A stretch of DNA of 64,000 nt from Staphylospora marina. Its GTDB lineage: Bacteria > Bacillota > Bacilli > Thermoactinomycetales > Thermoactinomycetaceae. The DNA lies in contig NZ_CP034118.1 of NCBI RefSeq assembly GCF_003856495.1, positions 2,268,182-2,332,181 on the forward strand. Reading direction: 5' to 3'. Numbering within the stretch: the stretch's first letter is position 1; every line of letters begins with the position of its first letter. The notes beneath the pieces are model-generated. The model did not search any database, was not told where the DNA came from, and worked only from the letters and a program-made list of their open reading frames with translations. Of this stretch, positions 1 through 32,320 are shown in pieces. A program made the position numbers and the translations under genes.

Positions 1-405
1 AAACAGCGGTTTTTCCGAAGAGAACGGTTTCAGGTCACCGTGTTTTACGACGGCTGGTGCCCCTTGTGTACCCGGAGCGCGGAAACGGCGAAAAAATTTG
101 ACACCCTCCGTCTTCTTCAATTTGTCTCTTTTCGGGAGCCGGGCGTGACCGAGAAGTACGGGTTGGATTCCGCCAAGCTGGAACAGCGGCTGCACACGAC
201 CACGGACGGACGGCATTTTCGGGAAGGCATTGATGCATTGATTCAAATGACCAGCCGGGTCATTCCGTTCTGGCCGCTCGTTCCCCTGCTGCTGTTGGCC
301 AAAGGTCTCGGATTCGGTCAATGGGCCTATGACCAGGTGGCCAAGCGGAGAACGATCATCCCGGCCGGCGGCTGCGAAGAAAAGTGCACGATCGAGCCGC
401 AATGA
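1..405 (+). CDS. DCC-family (DUF393) thiol-disulfide oxidoreductase-like protein, 5' end cut off
   Basis: The reading frame is open from the first base of the window, so the start probably lies upstream; an internal GTG at position 40 is possible but would leave almost nothing before the key motif. The motif YDGWCPLC, a DxxCxxC signature near the N-terminus, is the hallmark of the DCC (DUF393) family of small putative thiol-disulfide oxidoreductases. A hydrophobic stretch in the second half (PFWPLVPLLLLAKGLGFG) and a short C-terminal tail with two cysteines (GGCEEKC) follow. A strong hairpin terminator follows the stop. Substrate unknown. Family assignment is firm; the oxidoreductase role is inferred from the CxxC motif. 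Confidence 0.8.
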   Translation, partial: KQRFFRRERFQVTVFYDGWCPLCTRSAETAKKFDTLRLLQFVSFREPGVTEKYGLDSAKLEQRLHTTTDGRHFREGIDALIQMTSRVIPFWPLVPLLLLAKGLGFGQWAYDQVAKRRTIIPAGGCEEKCTIEPQ

Positions 406-457
406 CCCGGGGAGCCCCCTCCTCCAACCGGCCGTCGGTTCATGCATCAGAAAAATC

Positions 458-23768: not shown

Positions 23769-24039
23769 CGTCTGAGTCCCGTAAATCTCCCGGGAGATTC
23801 TCAGACGTCGATTCAAGACTCGGAAAAAGATGTTTCTTGGTCACAACTCTGTGAAGCCAGACGGCATGTCTTATCCCAATAATAAAGCCGGAGCCATCCC
23901 CTGTGAGTGCCTTTGCCATTGCAACGAAACGAACAGGGGATGGCTTCCGGCGGATTCCCTCACACAATTTCACCACGGATAACCCCGAAAAAGTCTGGGG
24001 GCCGGGAGTCTTGCAAATCCCTCGGGAGGTTCACAGACT
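23769..24039. repeat. Duplicated 270-bp unit, copy 1
   Basis: Order: leader-type hairpin H2 (CGTCTGAG 23769 / CTCAGACG 23807), tail with CTCGGAAAAAGATG, an 18-bp-stem hairpin (GCCGGAGCCATCCCCTGT 23887-23904 / 23933-23951), a repeat remnant CAATTTCACCACGGAT, and hairpin H3 (23992-24039). From about 23816 to 24000 it is nearly identical to copy 2 at 25179-25453. No protein product is convincing in it. Confidence 0.8.
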
Positions 24040-24104
24040 TCGATTCATTCCCCCCATTCGACATCCGTTTCAACTCCCGGCACCCGATTTCAAACAAAGG
24101 CTCA

Positions 24105-24923
24105 TCACTCTTCGTCCAAGTCCTCCAACGTAAAAGCACGGGACGTAAACATATCGATGACTTTTTCTTCTCCCGAATACCCCTTGGCCTCGATGGAAAA
24201 GGTCCCGCTGTCATTTTTGGACAGTTCGAGGACCACCTTGGCTTGGGTCAGCGGAAATTCCAACCGAACCGACACTTTCCGAATCTCTTCCCGGCGCAAA
24301 TCAAATTTCGCGGGCGAATCCGGATGGCGTCTTTGCCGAAGCTCATTGACGACCTCCAACGTCTTGTTGTCGAACAATTTGACGAAGAAGCTTCGGTCCA
24401 GCACCAACTGATGAGATTGGCCCATCATCAAGATTTTGGTCTCCACAAGTTGAGGAACCAACTCATACCGCAGGAAACGATAACGATTGAAATAATTCCC
24501 GTCGAAATGATCATGCTCCGTGAAATAATCGACGACAATCTGATTCTCAATGACAAACACGGGAACATTCTTGATGTTCACGATCTCGATCAGGAGACCG
24601 TCGAAAAAGCGTCGCTTGATATTTTCGTTAATGAGGCGTTTGAGAACGATTCGGACCTCCGGTTCCTGCGCCTTCCGCATCTCATCCAGTTGCTTCTGGG
24701 TCGCTTCCATCGTCGCCGAGATCTGCTCCCGCGTCAGCTCTTCCTGCTTCTTCAGCTGATCCCTGGTCAGTTCCTCTTGCTTTTGAATCTGCTTGACCGC
24801 CACCATCACCGCGATGACGGCCACCACCACCGTCAACAGCCCCACAATCACTTCTCCGGTGAACATCTCCCACAAACTGCATTGACCCATCCACACCGAA
24901 AACACCGAACAATCTTGCCCCAT
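24105..24923 (-). CDS. Membrane-anchored coiled-coil protein, unknown function
   Basis: A 272-residue protein. A membrane helix (MFTGEVIVGLLTVVVAVIAVMVAVK) lies near residues 19-43, then a coiled coil with a KQEELTRDQLK / KQEELTREQI duplication, then a roughly 180-residue cytoplasmic or external domain (EVRIVLKRLINENIKRRFFDGLLIEIVNIKNVPVFV) I do not recognise. The start at 24923 is chosen because GGGGGAGGAGAGA precedes it; the reading frame extends further upstream without a ribosome site. It sits between the two copies of the 270-bp unit and may have moved or been duplicated with them. Confidence 0.7.
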   Translation of the reverse strand: MGQDCSVFSVWMGQCSLWEMFTGEVIVGLLTVVVAVIAVMVAVKQIQKQEELTRDQLKKQEELTREQISATMEATQKQLDEMRKAQEPEVRIVLKRLINENIKRRFFDGLLIEIVNIKNVPVFVIENQIVVDYFTEHDHFDGNYFNRYRFLRYELVPQLVETKILMMGQSHQLVLDRSFFVKLFDNKTLEVVNELRQRRHPDSPAKFDLRREEIRKVSVRLEFPLTQAKVVLELSKNDSGTFSIEAKGYSGEEKVIDMFTSRAFTLEDLDEE

Positions 24924-25026
24924 TCTCTCTCCTCCCCCGCTTTGGTTTGACAGTGTATATCCCATCCATCCGCAGTTCTCTTCTTTTTTGTTCGTTGTCA
25001 TCCCGCGAATTTTCACAGGTCCTTTC

Positions 25027-25123
25027 CTGAGCCTTCCACCATGAAAGCAACTCCAACGACACCGACGAAATCGACACTGAAAGCATCGGAGACATTCAAT
25101 TCCACCATGGGTGCAATTGCAAC
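25027..25123 (-). CRISPR. CRISPR array B: two degenerate repeats
   Basis: Repeat-like units at 25027-25057 (TTCCACCATGAAAGCAACTC core) and 25093-25123 (TCAATTCCACCATGGGTGCA core) are separated by 35 bases. Orientation and spacing match the other arrays. Confidence 0.65.
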
Positions 25124-25225
25124 CCCATTGTGAACAACAGACAAATCAAGATTTCTCCATTATATCAAACCCCGAAAAATTCTGTGAACCGAAGTCCTGC
25201 AAAAACCCCGGGAGGTTCACAGACT
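25124..25225 (-). promoter_or_regulatory. Leader of array B with promoter and hairpin H4
   Basis: TTCACA (plus TGTGAA at 25183-25188), 18 bp, TATAAT (25159-25164), then GTTCACAATGGGG before the first repeat, the same as in array A. Hairpin H4 spans 25179-25225; its outermost two pairs are lost. Confidence 0.7.
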
Positions 25226-25453
25226 TCGATTCACAACTCGGAAAAAGATGCCTCTCGGTCACAACTCTGTGAAGCCAGACGGCATGTCTTATCCCAATAA
25301 TAAAGCCGGAGCCATCCCCTGTGAGTGCCTTTGCCATTGCAACGAAACGAACAGGGGATGGCTTCCGGCGGATCCCCTCACACAATTTCACCACGGATAA
25401 CCCCGAACAAGTCTGTGGGCCGGGAGCCCTGCATAAACCCCGGTTTACAGACT
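25179..25453. repeat. Duplicated 270-bp unit, copy 2
   Basis: Same order as copy 1: hairpin H4 (25179-25225), tail CTCGGAAAAAGATG, 18-bp-stem hairpin (25305-25322 / 25351-25369), repeat remnant CAATTTCACCACGGAT (about 25383), hairpin H5 (25410-25453). The two copies are direct repeats about 1.4 kb apart. The rest of the gap to the GNAT gene holds no gene. Confidence 0.8.
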
Positions 25454-25480
25454 TCGACTCAAAATCCGGAAATGGCCCCT

Positions 25481-26257
25481 TCACTTCATGGATGGTGACT
25501 GACACCCGTATGAGTACGCCAAGCACACAAACCCGTGCTTCTCCAAAATGGGACGGCTCATCGGGGAGGCATCCACCATGAGGAATGGATGCCCTTTCTC
25601 ATACGCTTTCCTGGCGCGGATGGCCAGCAAATCGGAATAACCCCCTTTTCCCCGGAATTCCGGCAAAGTGGCCCCTCCCCACAGACTGGCGAAGGAAGAG
25701 TTCTGCTCCAGGTACATCCAGGCTGCACTCACCAACCGGTCTTCTTCAAAAACGCCATACAGATACAGCGAATCGGGATGTTCCCGCTTGTCCCGCCAAA
25801 GCCTCTCTCCAAGCCCGGCGTGCGATTCCCCCCAAACGGCATCTTCCAAGGCCACGATGTCCCGGATGCCTTGTTCGTCGGTGATCTCCCGGACACGGGA
25901 AGACAGTTCACGAGTCAGGAGCGGATGCCGCTCATCCAGCTTGATGATCATGAGGGCTTCCGGCTCTCCCACCGTAAAGCCTTCCCGCCTGAGGAGTTCT
26001 TTCAAATGAGGCGGCCGGTCGTAGCTGTATACTTTCCATTCAAAATCCTGCTTGAGACTCCGGAAATAATCCAATTCGTTGCGGATGACCTCTCCGGCAT
26101 TCTCTTCGTTCAGATCCGACGCGATGATAAACGCCAAATCTCCGTACCGGGAAATGAGACGTACCACATGCTCCGTCTCTTCCCGGACGAATCCTTCCAT
26201 CCGTGCTTCCTGTCTGAGTTCCTTGTGAAATTGCAACAGCCACGGGTGTTTGTCCAT
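25481..26257 (-). CDS. GNAT-family N-acetyltransferase
   Basis: A 258-residue protein. The C-terminal half is a GNAT domain: EDRLVSAAWMYLEQNSSFASLWGGATLPEFRGKGGYSDLLAIRARKAYEKGHPFLMVDASPMSRPILEKHGFV, with the acetyl-CoA loop reading RGKGGYSDLL. The N-terminal half is an older, partly degenerate GNAT-like or unrelated domain. The substrate is unknown. The start ATG at 26257 follows GGGAG; its gene is 2 bases from the DUF817 gene, so it is the last gene of a four-gene operon. Confidence 0.85.
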   Translation of the reverse strand: MDKHPWLLQFHKELRQEARMEGFVREETEHVVRLISRYGDLAFIIASDLNEENAGEVIRNELDYFRSLKQDFEWKVYSYDRPPHLKELLRREGFTVGEPEALMIIKLDERHPLLTRELSSRVREITDEQGIRDIVALEDAVWGESHAGLGERLWRDKREHPDSLYLYGVFEEDRLVSAAWMYLEQNSSFASLWGGATLPEFRGKGGYSDLLAIRARKAYEKGHPFLMVDASPMSRPILEKHGFVCLAYSYGCQSPSMK

Positions 26258-26259
26258 CT

Positions 26260-27144
26260 TCAAGCTCCCTTCGATTTGCGAGGCGTGACTTTCTCTCTTT
26301 GCCCCACCCTCACGGATTCTTCTTTTCCCCGGGAGACGTTCTCCTTCACCCGTTTTAACGTTGCCACGATCAAAAAACTGATGATCACCAACAGGAACCA
26401 TGAGCTCACCTTGCTGTAATGAACCGGGTTCCACGTTTTGATCTGGTTCGGGTACTCCCAGGCCCCGAAGTATGTGGCGATGTTCTCGGCCACCCAGATG
26501 AAAAAACCGATGAGCACAAAGGAGAGTGCCACCGGCATCCGGTAGCGGACGCCGTTCACCTCGTACAGGACCCACGATCGCCAAAACACGATCCACACGA
26601 GGCCGGTCAGCCACCATCTGACATCGATCCAGAAATGGTGGGTGAAGAAATTCAGGTAGATGGCGGCGGCCAGAGGCACCACCGCCCAGAAGGGCGGCCA
26701 GCGAAACAACTCCACCTTCAGTCTTCTCCATGCCTGGCAGAGATAACTGGCCACGCTGGCGTACATGAATCCGCTGTACAGCGGGACACCGAACACCTTG
26801 AAATATCCTTCCTCCGGGTATGCCCATGAACCCATGTGCGTTTTGAATATCTCGAGAGCCAGCCCGATGATGTGGAACAAGGTGATCACTTTCAGTTCAT
26901 CCCGGGTTTCCAGCCCGGAGCGAACCATCCACCACTGCATCAGCAGGCAGATGAGGAGCAGCCAATCGTACCGCGGCAACAAGGGAAGCGGCACCTTCTG
27001 TGTCACGGCCAAAGCCGTAAAAATCACGGCGGGAAACAGACAGGACAAGGCTTGCTCCCGGCCGAACAGGAGAAGCTGCTTCACGGCTCTCAACATGGTT
27101 CCCGATGAGAATCCCCGCCCGTCACTCCCCGGTGTCCTCATCAT
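26260..27144 (-). CDS. DUF817 family membrane protein (YoaT-like)
   Basis: A 294-residue protein with eight or so membrane helices. The motifs FKTHMGSWAYPEEGYFKVFGVPLYSGFMYASVASY and FGAWEYPNQIKTWNPVHYSKVSSWFLLVI are the conserved core of DUF817. Role unknown. Its 5' end overlaps the HTH gene by 23 bp; the first 20 residues may not be used if translation begins at the Met before LRAVKQ. It is cotranscribed with DUF2975, HTH and GNAT genes. Confidence 0.83.
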   Translation of the reverse strand: MMRTPGSDGRGFSSGTMLRAVKQLLLFGREQALSCLFPAVIFTALAVTQKVPLPLLPRYDWLLLICLLMQWWMVRSGLETRDELKVITLFHIIGLALEIFKTHMGSWAYPEEGYFKVFGVPLYSGFMYASVASYLCQAWRRLKVELFRWPPFWAVVPLAAAIYLNFFTHHFWIDVRWWLTGLVWIVFWRSWVLYEVNGVRYRMPVALSFVLIGFFIWVAENIATYFGAWEYPNQIKTWNPVHYSKVSSWFLLVIISFLIVATLKRVKENVSRGKEESVRVGQREKVTPRKSKGA

Positions 27145-27352
27145 GACGGTACTCCAAAATGTCTCCGGGCTGACAATCCAACACCCGGCAAATCCGGTCC
27201 AACGTGGACAAGCGAATCGCCTTTGCCTTTCCGTTCTTCAAGATCGAGATGTTGGCCATGGTGATCCCGACCTTTTCCGAAAGCTCGGTCACGCTCATTT
27301 TCCGTTTGGCCAGCATGACATCCAGATTGATGATGATCGCCACTTTCTTCAC
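27122..27352 (-). CDS. Short XRE/YozG-type HTH regulator
   Basis: A 76-residue protein consisting of a single Cro/CI helix-turn-helix: INLDVMLAKRKMSVTELSEKVGITMANISILKNGKAKAIRLSTLDRICRVLDCQPGDILEY. This YozG-like type is usually paired with a DUF2975 membrane protein, as here, with one base between the genes. It may control this operon, possibly through the membrane partner. Confidence 0.88.
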   Translation of the reverse strand: MKKVAIIINLDVMLAKRKMSVTELSEKVGITMANISILKNGKAKAIRLSTLDRICRVLDCQPGDILEYRHDEDTGE

Positions 27353-27353
27353 C

Positions 27354-27839
27354 TCAGATCGTCAGATCATGTTCCGCCTTGATCTCAACGGCACTCTTCA
27401 GCAGCTTCTGAAGAACAGCGGCAAAGACCGAAACCACCATCGCGGCAAACGCCAAGAGCAGACCGATCAACAACATGCCCGGGGCGTCATCCTTTTCCGC
27501 CACATAGTAAAAGAGCGGCAAACTCAGCACATACAACATGCTGATGGAAAAGGCATAATGCTTGATCTTCTTCAGCGCCGTCACCGACAACTCCGAAAAC
27601 GCTTCATTCCTGTCGATGTACTGCAGCAACTTGAACGCTTGATACAAGGCCATGTAAAAAGGAATCGCCGACAAATAGAAGATGCCGAGAAGAATGTGCA
27701 GGAACACATACTCCCGTTCCGAATCCGAAGCTCCCTCGATGCCCAGGTAAAAAACGACGCATAACGTAAGGATCCCGAGACCGAGCAACACAATCACCGA
27801 CTTCAAAAACAGCGTGGAACCCTGATCACGGTTCATCAT
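27354..27839 (-). CDS. DUF2975 family membrane protein
   Basis: A 161-residue protein with four membrane helices. The middle segment PFYMALYQAFKLLQYIDRNEAFSELSVTALKKIKHYAFSISMLY is characteristic of DUF2975. GAGGTG lies before the ATG pair at 27839/27836. First gene of the operon with the HTH regulator. Confidence 0.83.
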   Translation of the reverse strand: MMNRDQGSTLFLKSVIVLLGLGILTLCVVFYLGIEGASDSEREYVFLHILLGIFYLSAIPFYMALYQAFKLLQYIDRNEAFSELSVTALKKIKHYAFSISMLYVLSLPLFYYVAEKDDAPGMLLIGLLLAFAAMVVSVFAAVLQKLLKSAVEIKAEHDLTI

Positions 27840-28048: not shown

Positions 28049-28147
28049 ATTGTTGCATCGATCTGTTCAATTATCGGATTCAGCGAAAAAATGACGGCAC
28101 AGACTTCGAATCAATACGCATACAAATCGGTTCAAAACACTAAAAAT

Positions 28148-28184
28148 GGAACCTCCTACCGATGTTGCGGCCGGAGGTTCCCAT
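28148..28184 (-). terminator. Intrinsic terminator of the HTH-TPR gene
   Basis: GGAACCTCC (28148-28156) and GGAGGTTCC (28173-28181); the minus strand continues ATTTTTAG. A second terminator follows at 28010. Confidence 0.82.
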
Positions 28185-28253
28185 TTCCCTCGCAAATCAT
28201 GTCCAGTTATGTATAAGCGTTCCGTTCACCGTGAACAACCTGGCGATCACCAA

Positions 28254-28286
28254 TCAGTCGGTGGGAGGATCAGCGATGTAACGCAT
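28254..28286 (-). CDS. Possible in-frame micro-ORF MRYIADPPTD at the end of the HTH-TPR gene
   Basis: A perfect ribosome binding site AAGGAGGTGG (minus strand, 28303-28294) is followed after 7 bases by ATG and ten codons that share the frame and stop of the HTH-TPR gene. The ten residues MRYIADPPTD form the last residues of the large protein and look unlike its TPR repeats. It could be a separately translated pheromone-like peptide for this regulator. The Shine-Dalgarno could also be an accident of Glu-Gly-Gly codons. Confidence 0.4.
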   Translation of the reverse strand: MRYIADPPTD

Positions 28287-29624
28287 ACTTGTTCCACCTC
28301 CTTCTTCGAGTTTCACGGACAAGCGCAGGTACTGAGTGACGTACTTCCGGAAACATTCCGGGTCCAGCTGCTCACAACACAGAGCCAGCTTCCTCAAAAT
28401 ATTCTGTCTTTGTGCGTCGAATCCTCCTTCTTCCGACAAATTGAGTGCCTCTTCGTACAACTTTTTTGCTTTCTCCATCTGTCTGCGTTTTTGGAAGCAA
28501 TCTCCCAGTGCCGAGAGCGCTTCGATCAGCCGATGGGAATCCTGGTACGTCTTCCCCAGTTCCACGGCCTGCTCGAGGTACTTTTGCGCGTTGTCCAGTT
28601 CATTTTTTTCAAAGTATAGCAGACCCAGCTTGATATAGGTAGAGGTCAAAATATGTTTTTTTCTGATTTTTCCGCGAATGCGCAGTGCGGACCGGTAACA
28701 GAGCTCCGCCTCTTCGTGGGACCCCAGCTTGGTGTAGCTTTCGCCCATGGTGGTCCACAAGTCGAACGCCCGGTCACTCACCTTGTCCACCCGCGCCCGT
28801 TCCAGGCCCTGTCTCGCCACCAGAATGGCCTGTTCGTACAATTTCATCTTGTTCAGGAGCATGGCGCGCAGGTCATACATGTTGAGCCGCGCTTCCGCAC
28901 TCTCGATTTGGGGCATTTCATTCCAGATCTCATCCAACAGGAGAAAGGCTTCATTGTCCCGATTCAGCTTTTCCAAAAAAATGACTTTGCTGATGAGCAA
29001 ATGATATTTCACATGCTTCCGTTCCCCGTTGGACTTGAAGGAATTGAGTCCCAACTGTACGCACTGGAGCGCCTTTTCCAATTTGCTCTGGTGGTGGTAA
29101 ATGCGGGACAGACCGTTGTATGCCGCCGCCTGGATATTGGTGTCCAGCAGCTCCGGAAATTGTTCCACATGGCGGATGGCCTTCTGGTAATGAAGCTCCG
29201 CGTTGCTCCACTTGCGGTTTTCTTCGTAGTACCGTCCTTTTAGGTAGAGAACGACGCCATGAAGGGGATCGTTTTTGGAAACGCGGATCTGCCGAAGAAG
29301 GTTGTACGCTTTCTCCAGATCCACCATGTCGAGCACATACTCCACGCTCATCAGCTGGAGAGCGGGATTGATCTTGTGTGATTGGGGTCCGTCTCCGGAG
29401 TCGAGCAAATGGTCGCTCAGCACATCGGGAGCAATCCCCAACCGTTCGCACAAAAATTCCAGCTTCTCACGACTGACCCGATAGGCACCGCGCTCGATGT
29501 TGCTGATGGTTCCGGTCGATATCACATGATCGACCGAAAGCTCTTCCTGCTTCAGCCCCTTCTCTTTCCGCTTGCGACGGATCAGATGGCCGAGCTCGAG
29601 CGATACGAATACGTATTCTTTCAT
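28254..29624 (-). CDS. HTH-TPR regulator (RRNPP-like quorum-sensing type)
   Basis: A 456-residue cytoplasmic protein. Residues 8-70 form an XRE helix-turn-helix (LGHLIRRKRKEKGLKQEELSVDHVISTGTISNIERG); from about residue 85 to the end there are eight or nine TPR-like helical pairs (AELHYQKAIRHVEQ, LTSTYIKLGLLYFEKNELDNAQKYLEQAVELGKTY, LIEALSALGDCFQKRRQMEKAKKLYEEAL). This layout is that of PlcR/NprR/AimR-type regulators, which bind a short secreted peptide re-imported by Opp. No separate propeptide gene with a signal sequence is seen next to it. See the micro-ORF at its 3' end. Confidence 0.83.
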   Translation of the reverse strand: MKEYVFVSLELGHLIRRKRKEKGLKQEELSVDHVISTGTISNIERGAYRVSREKLEFLCERLGIAPDVLSDHLLDSGDGPQSHKINPALQLMSVEYVLDMVDLEKAYNLLRQIRVSKNDPLHGVVLYLKGRYYEENRKWSNAELHYQKAIRHVEQFPELLDTNIQAAAYNGLSRIYHHQSKLEKALQCVQLGLNSFKSNGERKHVKYHLLISKVIFLEKLNRDNEAFLLLDEIWNEMPQIESAEARLNMYDLRAMLLNKMKLYEQAILVARQGLERARVDKVSDRAFDLWTTMGESYTKLGSHEEAELCYRSALRIRGKIRKKHILTSTYIKLGLLYFEKNELDNAQKYLEQAVELGKTYQDSHRLIEALSALGDCFQKRRQMEKAKKLYEEALNLSEEGGFDAQRQNILRKLALCCEQLDPECFRKYVTQYLRLSVKLEEGGGTSMRYIADPPTD

Positions 29625-30190: not shown

Positions 30191-31017
30191 TTACCCGGAG
30201 ACGAGATCCTCCGTTTCCCTGAACAACTCTTCCAACCGCTCAAATGCCTCTTTCAGCCGCTCTTTATCGGGGGAAATCAAGGTGAAGATCTCATCCACCC
30301 GCTCCCTGTATCCCGCCGGGACCGATTTCAATGAAGCCGCCAGGAAAACAGACCCTTTTTCATTCATAAAGTGGCATTCATTGAAGGCAAAGAGCACCTG
30401 GTTCAGACAGGAAACCGCCCGGAAACAGGAACCGGCCGCGTACGACGTGTCCAGGCCGGAAATGCTCTTTCGGCCCGTCTGCACCGAAAAATCCGCCTCC
30501 CGCAAAAAGCGGTCGATCAAGGCCCGTTTCAATGGTGAAGGATACGGCGTCACCATCGATTTCAATTGTGCAACCACTCCGGACGGATCACGGAGAACCC
30601 GGCACAAGCCAGATAAGTGGCATTGGTGAATCCGTGAGGATGGCCCGGCTGCATGTCAATCGTCACCTGCTCACGCAAGCACTCGTCAATCACCGCCCTT
30701 ACCTTGGACAGATCGCGGTACAAAATGTCCACCGCCATTCCCCGCACCTTCAGCCAACCTCCGCCGTTGATCCACGGCCCCCAACCGCCGGGGGCTGTCA
30801 GGAGTTGCTCCCGGTGGTCATCGTCCAACTCCGTGGCAATCTTCTGCAGTTCATCCAGGTCCAATGTTTCCGCAGAAGAAATGTAGATCCCAATGTCAAT
30901 GTCCGAATCCGGCCGATGAGATTCCCGCGCCCGCGAACCGCCAAGCACCACCGCCTCCACACCACGGACCGGCACCAAACGCTTCGCAATGTCGTCGATG
31001 AGGGATTGGATGTCCAT
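30191..31017 (-). pseudogene. Nucleotidyltransferase (MNT/kanamycin-NT type) broken by frameshift
   Basis: The N-terminal 140 residues (31017 to about 30600) contain the nucleotidyltransferase signature VVLGGSRARESHRPDSDIDIGIY with the metal-binding DxD. The C-terminal part (VLRDPSGVVAQLKS to LVSG, about 30595 to 30191) is in another frame and is a helical domain that follows directly in full-length relatives of about 275 residues, as I recall them. The break is at about 30598, between NATYLA and CRVLRD, and several codons seem to be missing as well. It lies in the CRISPR archipelago next to array C. Confidence 0.75.
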
Positions 31018-31212: not shown

Positions 31213-31419
31213 ATGGAGTGGATCATCGGGATTTTGATCGTCCTGTTTTTCCTGTCATTCATCCAGTTTGTGTACAATCTCGTCCGAATTCCAAGGCAAA
31301 TTCTCCACAGCAATACGGAATTGGAAAAAAAGCTGGACAAAGTCATCGAGCTGCTGGAAGAAAAACGGTCCGACCCCCCGCCGCCTCCGCCGGACGACAA
31401 ACAACCTGAGAACGAATGA
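31213..31419 (+). CDS. Small single-span membrane protein with coiled coil
   Basis: A 68-residue protein. One membrane helix (IIGILIVLFFLSFIQFVYNLV, residues 4-24), a short coiled coil (NTELEKKLDKVIELLEEK) and a Pro-rich acidic tail (PPPPPPDDKQPENE). AAAGAGGTG lies 5 bases before the ATG at 31213. Small proteins of this layout occur widely in Bacillales without known function. A terminator follows directly. Confidence 0.7.
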   Translation: MEWIIGILIVLFFLSFIQFVYNLVRIPRQILHSNTELEKKLDKVIELLEEKRSDPPPPPPDDKQPENE

Positions 31420-31442
31420 AGACTCGGTCCACAAAAACAGTG

Positions 31443-31485
31443 AAGTCTGTGAATCAGGGACATCCCTGGTTCACAGACTTTTTTG
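31443..31485 (+). terminator. Terminator related to the leader hairpins, distal end of array C
   Basis: AAGTCTGTGAA (31443-31453) and TTCACAGACTT (31470-31480) with an inner CAGGGA/TCCCTG stem, then TTTTT. Its outer stem is the same as in the CRISPR-leader hairpins. It ends the gene at 31213 and lies just outside the last repeat of array C. Confidence 0.85.
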
Positions 31486-31502
31486 TTTCAATTCATGATA
31501 AT

Positions 31503-31737
31503 TCCACTATCTCACTATGGATACAACTCAAATTTTGTGGTCAAACGAGTAAGTTCAGTTCATTCCCAACTTTCAATTCCACCATGGATCCAACTCAAAC
31601 GAGAGAAAAGTGCCAGATGAAATTGTGCGAACCATATCTTTCAATTCCACTATGGATACAACTCAAACGAAGAAGGGCGACATCCCCAAAGAAACCAAAC
31701 TTTCCACTTTCAATTCCACCATGGATCCAACTCAAAC
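31503..31737 (-). CRISPR. CRISPR array C: three intact repeats and one degenerate terminal repeat
   Basis: Intact 31-base units at 31570-31600, 31638-31668 and 31707-31737 differ only at two positions (CACC/CACT, GATCC/GATAC). A terminal unit at 31503-31533 keeps only its second half. Spacers are 36, 37 and 38 bases. On the minus strand the unit begins GTTTGAGTTG and ends GGAATTGAAAG, giving the 8-base tag ATTGAAAG after Cas6 cleavage. The degenerate end is away from the leader, as expected. Best-preserved array in the window. Confidence 0.92.
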
Positions 31738-31840
31738 CCATCTGTGAACACCAGAAAAATCAAGGCTTCTTCATTATACCAAACCTCAAAAAAGTCTGTG
31801 AACCGGGAGTCCTGCAAAAACCCCGGCAGGTTCACAGACT
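31738..31840 (-). promoter_or_regulatory. Leader of array C with promoter and hairpin H6
   Basis: Hairpin AGTCTGTGAACC / GGTTCACAGACT at 31793-31840; TTCACA (plus TGTGAA 31797-31802), exactly 18 bp, TATAAT (31773-31778), then GTGTTCACAGATGG and the first repeat. Matches leaders A and B. Confidence 0.8.
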
Positions 31841-31885
31841 TCGTTTAAGAATACGTTACAGATAAAGATAGCCCCTTGGCGAGGC

Positions 31886-32320
31886 TCACTCCTCAACCAT
31901 AAACTCAAAGATGTTTCCCTGGATGTATTCACTGGCCCGCTGACGCTTGCGTCGGCGCCGTCCGGCCCGGTCGTACTCAGAAGGCGCATTGTACAGCTGG
32001 GCTTTTTTGTGCTGGAGGATCCACTTGTCCTCGGCCTCGGGCAGTTTCTTCCGATCGTTAACAACTTCCAATATTCTGAATTCAAACCATTCGGGAGCAT
32101 CTTTACGATATTTCTTGAAGTCAAGTTGCAACTCAATGACGTGATGCGTTCCGTTTTTCAGTTGACTCAAATGTTCCTTTACCCTTTTCTGAGCACACCG
32201 CGTCCGACCAATGTACATTCGCCCATTGATCAAGTTCACCAACGCATAAATGGCGGCAATACCCTTTGGCAACGTGATTTTTTCATTCAAACGGATTCGA
32301 TAATGCTGCGGATCTTGCAT
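31886..32320 (-). CDS. GIY-YIG domain nuclease-like protein
   Basis: A 144-residue protein. The GIY-YIG pattern is visible: AIYALVNLINGRMYIGRTRCAQKRVKEHLSQLKNGTHHVIELQLDFKKY, where IYAL and YIG supply the two tyrosines, the Arg/His pair lies in QKRVKEH, and the catalytic Glu is probably in the EDKWILQH helix. The C-terminal 35 residues are basic (RAGRRRRKRQRA) and could bind nucleic acid. GGGGGAGGGTG precedes the ATG at 32320. It is a single gene lying between CRISPR arrays C and D. Homing-endonuclease-like or a stand-alone nuclease; role unknown. Confidence 0.8.
   Translation of the reverse strand: MQDPQHYRIRLNEKITLPKGIAAIYALVNLINGRMYIGRTRCAQKRVKEHLSQLKNGTHHVIELQLDFKKYRKDAPEWFEFRILEVVNDRKKLPEAEDKWILQHKKAQLYNAPSEYDRAGRRRRKRQRASEYIQGNIFEFMVEE

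Follow-up and report, generated by a model that had tools for sequence, protein, structure and literature searches.

The window, the 64-kb stretch of DNA analysed here, carries on its minus strand a gene for a helix-turn-helix (HTH)-TPR protein, an RRNPP-like transcription regulator, the 3′ end of which contains a second, very short reading frame preceded by its own Shine-Dalgarno sequence (SD). The features of the locus are:

28254..29624, minus strand: open reading frame of the HTH-TPR receptor, an RRNPP-like transcription regulator of 456 aa (ORF with Pfam matches).
28303-28294, minus strand: internal Shine-Dalgarno AAGGAGGTGG, a coding part of the receptor's E-G-G-G stretch.
28293-28287, minus strand: spacer AACAAGT, seven bases, between the SD and the ATG.
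28254..28286, minus strand: nested micro-ORF MRYIADPPTD, in frame with the receptor and ending at the common TGA.
28257..28274, minus strand: predicted signal core A-D-P-P-T-D, the C-terminal hexapeptide, with proline at -4, in a register shared with the precursors of sister receptors.
28130..28190, minus strand: hairpin followed by a T-rich stretch, 3′ of the receptor stop (fold -25.7 kcal/mol, z -4.5).

The nested frame opens with ATG at 28286-28284, runs through ten codons to 28257 and closes with TGA at 28256-28254; read directly, the C-terminal end of the receptor is ...LRLSVKLEEGGGTSMRYIADPPTD. This confirms the arrangement described in the first-pass annotation, namely AAGGAGGTGG, a 7-base spacer, ATG and the ten codons MRYIADPPTD before the common stop. 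Its remark that these codons contain no export signal is also correct by inspection: the 10-residue ORF has no hydrophobic stretch and hence no Phr-type N-terminal export leader. RNA structure around the micro-ORF start is ordinary (z -0.16). The hairpin and T-rich stretch at 28130..28190 probably form the transcription terminator of the receptor gene; a simple terminator scan of the minus strand listed a sole hairpin at 28026-28010 and not this one. Assignment of the SD to a downstream gene was rejected, as the next minus-strand gene starts at 27839 and hairpins intervene. That downstream region (27122-27839, minus strand) encodes a DUF2975 membrane protein and a small HTH_26 regulator.

The receptor possesses Pfam HTH_31/HTH_3 matches at residues 10-72 and TPR matches beyond, giving a layout of HTH (about 10-72), TPR superhelix (about 85-442) and flexible tail (443-456). 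A single-sequence AlphaFold2 model (mean pLDDT 74.5) shows a regular TPR superhelix up to residue 442, while residues 442-456 have pLDDT below 50, so that the tail is disordered and undocked in this model built without relatives. The combination of an HTH domain and a TPR superhelix expected of RRNPP(A) regulators is present. The RRNPP fold matches listed for the model are NprR (5dbk_B; VIA-align Z 25.6, rmsd 4.7 over 342 residues, 83..437, the TPR part) and Rap (RapI 4i1a_B; Z 23.3, rmsd 5.4). However, LGN scores above NprR (Z 29.6, rmsd 2.6), and further TPR proteins equal or surpass NprR in their match to the model, so the fold by itself is no proof of RRNPP kinship. Searched by sequence at E 1e-3, the PDB yielded 32 distinct sequences; most are TPR proteins, whether designed, eukaryotic or other, and none is an RRNPP entry. 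The 14 NCBIfam matches at E 1e-3 were all below cut-off and did not include the Rgg model TIGR01716.

Relatives of the receptor are widespread in the sample, with at least one match in 51 of the 61 genomes searched (E 1e-3), the matches outside the order being weak; the window's own genome holds seven matches of the HTH-TPR receptor kind. The survey set comprises 116 receptor genes, of which 102 belong to the family of the window's genome and the remaining 14 to other families in the same order. These are the best matches by similarity to the window protein (the listed ones of its family plus some others), a sampling that favours the nested clade described below. Five short doubtful matches from genome contigs (L037-L041) were dropped as unrelated and stand outside all counts, while the broken, truncated or doubtful rows L026, L050, L096, L111, L112 and L118 were kept among the 116 and excluded from the tree. 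Another 37 receptors of other families were taken up later, outside the 116. Phages and plasmids contained no relative at E 1e-10; viral contigs yielded four pattern matches and no relative.

A scan of the region from 110 bases before to 260 bases after each receptor stop found an SD-preceded micro-ORF of 5-45 codons with a [DEN]PP motif at 60 of the 116 receptor 3′ ends, as against 1/116 on the reverse strand; first-order shuffling, repeated 20 times, averaged 0.75 and never exceeded 3. The first-pass annotation had asked whether homologues lose the SD or continue past this point as ordinary TPR sequence. They largely bear out its reading: 43 of the 116 receptors end in frame two to six residues after [DEN]PP, exactly two residues in 40 cases, and each of the 43 has an in-frame start codon upstream of the motif (40 ATG, 2 GTG, 1 TTG). 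The SD itself is retained in part of the set. An SD match of at least 6 with an in-frame ATG located 8-25 codons before the stop occurs in 32 of the 43 nested genes and in none of the 73 other receptors; eight nested genes have weak matches (at most 5), which counts against those rows, and the remaining three are the GTG and TTG starts. Nested tails come from 17 of the 22 genomes of the family with fetched receptors and from 12 genera, with up to five in one genome among the matches listed. The arrangement is absent from all 14 other-family receptors of the 116 and from all 37 later ones.

Nested ORFs are 9-23 codons long (10 in the window gene), compared with 9-34 in the free and overlapping set described below. 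In an alignment of 35 of the 43 nested receptors, which are 31-45% identical to the window protein, both prolines are invariant. Among the 43 genes [DEN]PP is spelled by 26 different 9-base sequences, indicating selection on the peptide rather than on the DNA. The residues flanking PP diverge fast between near-identical receptors, as in the pair L075/L081, where the bodies are 93% identical and the tails agree at 15 of 21 positions.

Could such a tail be an ordinary C-terminal extension in which SD and ATG meet by chance? For the window gene taken alone the SD is borderline against synonymous codons (P = 0.06), and single genes are mostly not significant. Within the window, AAGGAGG-N4-11-ATG has six matches (two of them overlapping) against 1.25 expected, a number reached in none of 100 shuffles, although real gene starts also produce such matches and the count alone proves little. 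More telling are the gene sets. The strict SD-ATG test is passed by the window gene and by 0/37 further long ORFs in the window, chosen mechanically (at least 200 codons, non-overlapping) and not all necessarily genes; among the ORFs flanking the receptors it is passed by 1/234, and this one (L112) seems to be the downstream half of a receptor gene that is split. When codons upstream of the start were resampled synonymously in the 43 tails, the observed mean SD match was 7.63 bases against 4.82 simulated, the top simulated mean in 400 simulations being 5.74; the tails are related sequences and thus do not make 43 independent tests. In 35 of the 43 genes the eight codons ahead of the start include a GG dipeptide, in 24 of them encoded as GGAGGT, compared with 0.5% of random 8-residue windows from the receptor bodies. 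The SD-start-[DEN]PP arrangement is not chance. Recurrence in 43 receptors of 12 genera, together with the free duplicates and the common register presented below, makes us strongly disfavour the chance extension, to which we give next to no credence.

Besides the nested form, the same kind of peptide is encoded in other ways. Of the 73 receptors that are not nested, 24 have an overlapping or separate [DEN]PP ORF (19 downstream, 5 overlapping). Out-of-frame overlaps with the receptor are seen in L014, L016 and L020, and wholly downstream micro-ORFs in L030 (MTKSIIGDPPG) and L062 (MVKYFISDPPQE). Free duplicates also accompany nested tails: L117 carries the nested MFHHDPPED and, downstream with its own SD, the free MFHHDPPES, while L053 carries the nested MFALSSQIMSTKGYVADPPET and the downstream MLTQSSQVMSTKSYVSDPPET, with a shorter copy in between that was read by eye. 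L043, L046 and L089 provide further free-standing SD-start-peptide copies. Two to three PP micro-ORFs stand in a row 3′ of the receptor in L053, L063, L069 and L071, most with their own SD. Several forms coexist in the window's genome, where L002 has an out-of-frame overlap with KPP in a different register (MKLIVLYTDKPPELRGE), L004 a free micro-ORF (MNHRYLNDPPPGQVFR) and L007 a leader-bearing precursor; no peptide was found at L003, L005 and L006, three of its seven receptors.

A quick maximum-likelihood tree of 110 receptors, from which the nested tails had been removed beforehand, places 42 of the 43 nested rows in a single clade of 57 (SH-aLRT 99), with L059 outside. The distribution of nested versus other receptors takes eight changes on the tree, six of them forced by well-supported branches, against a mean of 34 after shuffling. 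In 12 of the 15 non-nested rows of this clade a PP micro-ORF is still present, either overlapping the receptor gene or as a cistron of its own (L016 MTRLFGEPPAV, L022 MDMLFTFGDPPLE and L069 MDFTGPPDAD are examples), which means that the peptide usually outlives the loss of nesting; the scans found no PP micro-ORF in the other three, L055, L065 and L085.

These observations bear on the possibility that the peptide is never free. The tail would then work only within the receptor, reaching the TPR groove of its own subunit by folding back, or that of a dimer partner, and setting the resting state, while signals of other receptors compete with it. Such a tethered ligand would suit the preponderance of 43 in-frame receptors over five labelled out-of-frame overlaps and L002, as well as the position of the tail behind the final TPR helix and its disorder in the model. 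There are also known TPR proteins governed by their own C-terminal motifs, and LGN in an "auto-inhibited conformation" (4jhr_B) is among the fold matches. The in-frame bias, however, may reflect shared descent alone, given the eight changes on the tree, and tails as short as nine residues from the start codon (L117) span little of the groove. A purely tethered role would also leave unexplained the SD excess, the start codons in 43/43 genes and the free duplicates with SDs of their own, and we consider it unlikely.

Receptors outside the nested set point to the nature of the peptide. Among 86 receptors, comprising the 49 of the 116 without a nested or detected [DEN]PP micro-ORF (four of which hold a looser PP micro-ORF) and the 37 later ones, 38 have a leader-like ORF at the 3′ end. 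An adjacent small-peptide gene, as expected of RRNPP(A) systems, is therefore present, as a micro-ORF in 60 of the 116 receptors and as a leader-like ORF at 38 of 86 others. The leader-like ORFs were picked by length, hydrophobicity, early K or R and best SD, with their C-terminal ends ignored, and the count of 38 still includes the spurious-looking L074 and L125. The start of 25 of the 38 lies 14 or 17 bases ahead of the receptor stop and in another frame. Proline occupies position -4 in 36 of the 38, as it does in 40 of the 43 nested and 23 of the 34 free or overlapping peptides, against only four of the 86 receptors' own C-termini. The pair [DEN]P stands at -5/-4 in 29/38 leader-like ORFs and 40/43 nested ones, and [DEN]P is found in 30/38 precursor ends versus 3.7% of random 14-residue receptor stretches. 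S and G are commonest at position -6, and the leader-like ORFs typically close with [S/G][D/E/N]P and three further residues. Some precursors carry tandem copies of the putative signal (four of QSEPGGL in L114, four of GNPGEY in L031, several of SAFPGPT in L145; also SEDPGMS in L136); repeats such as those of L114 mark the C-terminal part as the signal.

By their common proline register, the nested peptides resemble the signal-bearing C-terminus of a Phr-like precursor from which the leader is missing. Sister precursors such as those of L114, L124, L137 and L150 belong to homologous receptors and share the C-terminal motif and register with the nested set, but they are of the exported type, with a leader, and lie out of frame. 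Set against Phr-like pheromones in general, the nested peptide has the C-terminal hexapeptide with the motif of the sister receptors and lacks the export leader. The suggestion in the first-pass annotation that the nested codons specify a signal peptide thereby gains support.

The register also speaks to another explanation, in which the peptide is inert and [DE]PP[DEGN] before the stop acts as a diproline pause, slower termination tuning receptor or mRNA levels. Diproline with acidic or glycine neighbours is a strong EF-P-dependent pause site, and D, E, G or N directly follows PP in 38 of the 43 nested tails. Yet the leader-bearing precursors keep proline at -4 and mostly have G instead of P at -3 (G in 19/36), so that it is the C-terminal register that is conserved, not PP. 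Copies that stand alone behind an SD of their own would have no obvious use in stalling, and the quick divergence around PP in L075/L081 is what a specificity code would show. We regard ribosome stalling as an improbable function of the motif.

We propose that the micro-ORF probably encodes a leaderless pheromone, which the 3′ end of the receptor gene supplies and the TPR domain of the same receptor recognises. Ribosomes would initiate anew at the internal SD and ATG (28286) within the receptor gene and produce the leaderless 10-residue MRYIADPPTD, whose recognised part would be the C-terminal hexapeptide ADPPTD. This peptide may descend from the Phr-like pheromones of the sister receptors, with their [S/G][D/E/N]Pxxx ends, and have lost the leader, or it may be their counterpart in function. 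It could either stay in the cell or be exported by some route and re-imported via an oligopeptide permease; it would then bind on the concave side of the TPR superhelix and switch the DNA binding of the receptor. Translation from 28286, TPR binding, switching and any export or import are inferred. The ten codons may be the whole signal, with no need for processing. Owing to the common frame, every full-length receptor also bears the peptide as a flexible tail, which may act in cis as well.

Candidates for import exist in the window's genome, which encodes five SBP_bac_5 (OppA/DppA-type) binding proteins. EcsAB is a relative of the PptAB peptide exporter; EcsB (PF05975) is present in 20 of the 23 genomes searched, with no match in that of the window (G000) or in G007 and G010. 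The peptide does not have the hallmarks of classical export (Sec/PptAB, with maturation outside the cell), a difference that concerns the export route and not the receptor fold, and a different exporter may serve it. More tentatively, it is possible that one gene supplies both receptor and ligand, the free leaderless signal being opposed by the tethered tail as a competitor that sets the threshold. What the cell reads would then be how much free peptide there is relative to tail, rather than secretion, and communication would have been turned wholly or partly into an intracellular self-sensor.

Among known systems, NprR-NprX resembles that of the window in HTH and TPR architecture, in the alignment of the TPR fold and in the placement of the peptide, nprX lying at the 3′ end of its receptor gene. 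The two differ in that the window peptide is leaderless and its micro-ORF lies in frame inside the receptor gene, whereas NprR-type peptides are described with an export leader (PMC9765709). Leaderless communication peptides (LCPs; SIP-RopB and relatives, of Rgg type) come closer in this respect, since an ultrasmall leaderless ORF is itself the signal for an RRNPPA-family receptor, according to PMC10518010; the passages on RopB-type receptors in PMC10518010 and PMC12700828 call the export route of their leaderless signals uncharacterised. The characterised LCPs described in PMC10518010 are separate ORFs, transcribed divergently to the receptor, and their peptides are aliphatic or aromatic, such as MWLILLFL. 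They are 8-9 residues long, close to the ten codons found here, and likewise ultrasmall and leaderless; the window-type peptides differ from them in lying in frame within the receptor gene and in their polar acidic [DE]PPxx end. AloR-AloP of Paenibacillus shares with the window system the many receptor-peptide pairs per genome, and its leader-bearing ORFs may partly overlap the receptor 3′ end, as described in PMC7425212.

Within open-licence PubMed Central, our searches turned up no account of an RRNPP receptor gene that contains its own pheromone in frame. The signal-receptor pair and the leaderless signal are thus known; what is apparently new is the [DE]PP family and its nesting in frame within the receptor gene. 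A nested peptide is easily missed because it has neither an export signal nor a separate gene, and the search ranges set out in the method passages of published surveys (PMC10518010, PMC9765709, PMC10075063) are ill placed to detect it. The LCP survey starts 20 bases before the receptor stop, so that nested starts at -30 to -72 fall outside its range (PMC10518010). The main procedure of the RRNPPA survey covers the last 50 bases of the receptor and 1,000 beyond and asks for leader-bearing peptides of 20-120 aa, Rgg, ComR and PrgX being handled by a separate route (PMC9765709). RRNPP_detector begins at -60 bases with a minimum of 10 residues, and neither its strict nor its relaxed class accepts a peptide that lacks both a leader and an SHP match; leaderless peptides are allowed in the loose class, the only one in which the window ORF might in principle appear (PMC10075063).

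If our reading is true, a whole bacterial family would hold many unrecognised signal-receptor pairs. The leader-bearing, overlapping, free and nested forms found among related receptors would represent an evolutionary series for an exported signal losing its leader, and this mix of forms makes it testable whether leaderless signals exit the cell at all.

Two further observations concern the surroundings of the receptor gene. On the minus strand, 30562-31017 encodes a nucleotidyltransferase-domain protein (Pfam Polbeta/NTP_transf_2), followed by a small ORF with no Pfam match (30191-30607); judged by their arrangement, the two (30191-31017) are possibly an MNT-HEPN pair. Similar peptide strings (FTDFDS, MSAFAIATKRTGDGFRRIPSHNFTTDNPE, NSTMDPTQT) recur in mechanically called inter-gene ORFs at 23903-25581 and 31416-32136, which suggests repeated intergenic DNA elements.
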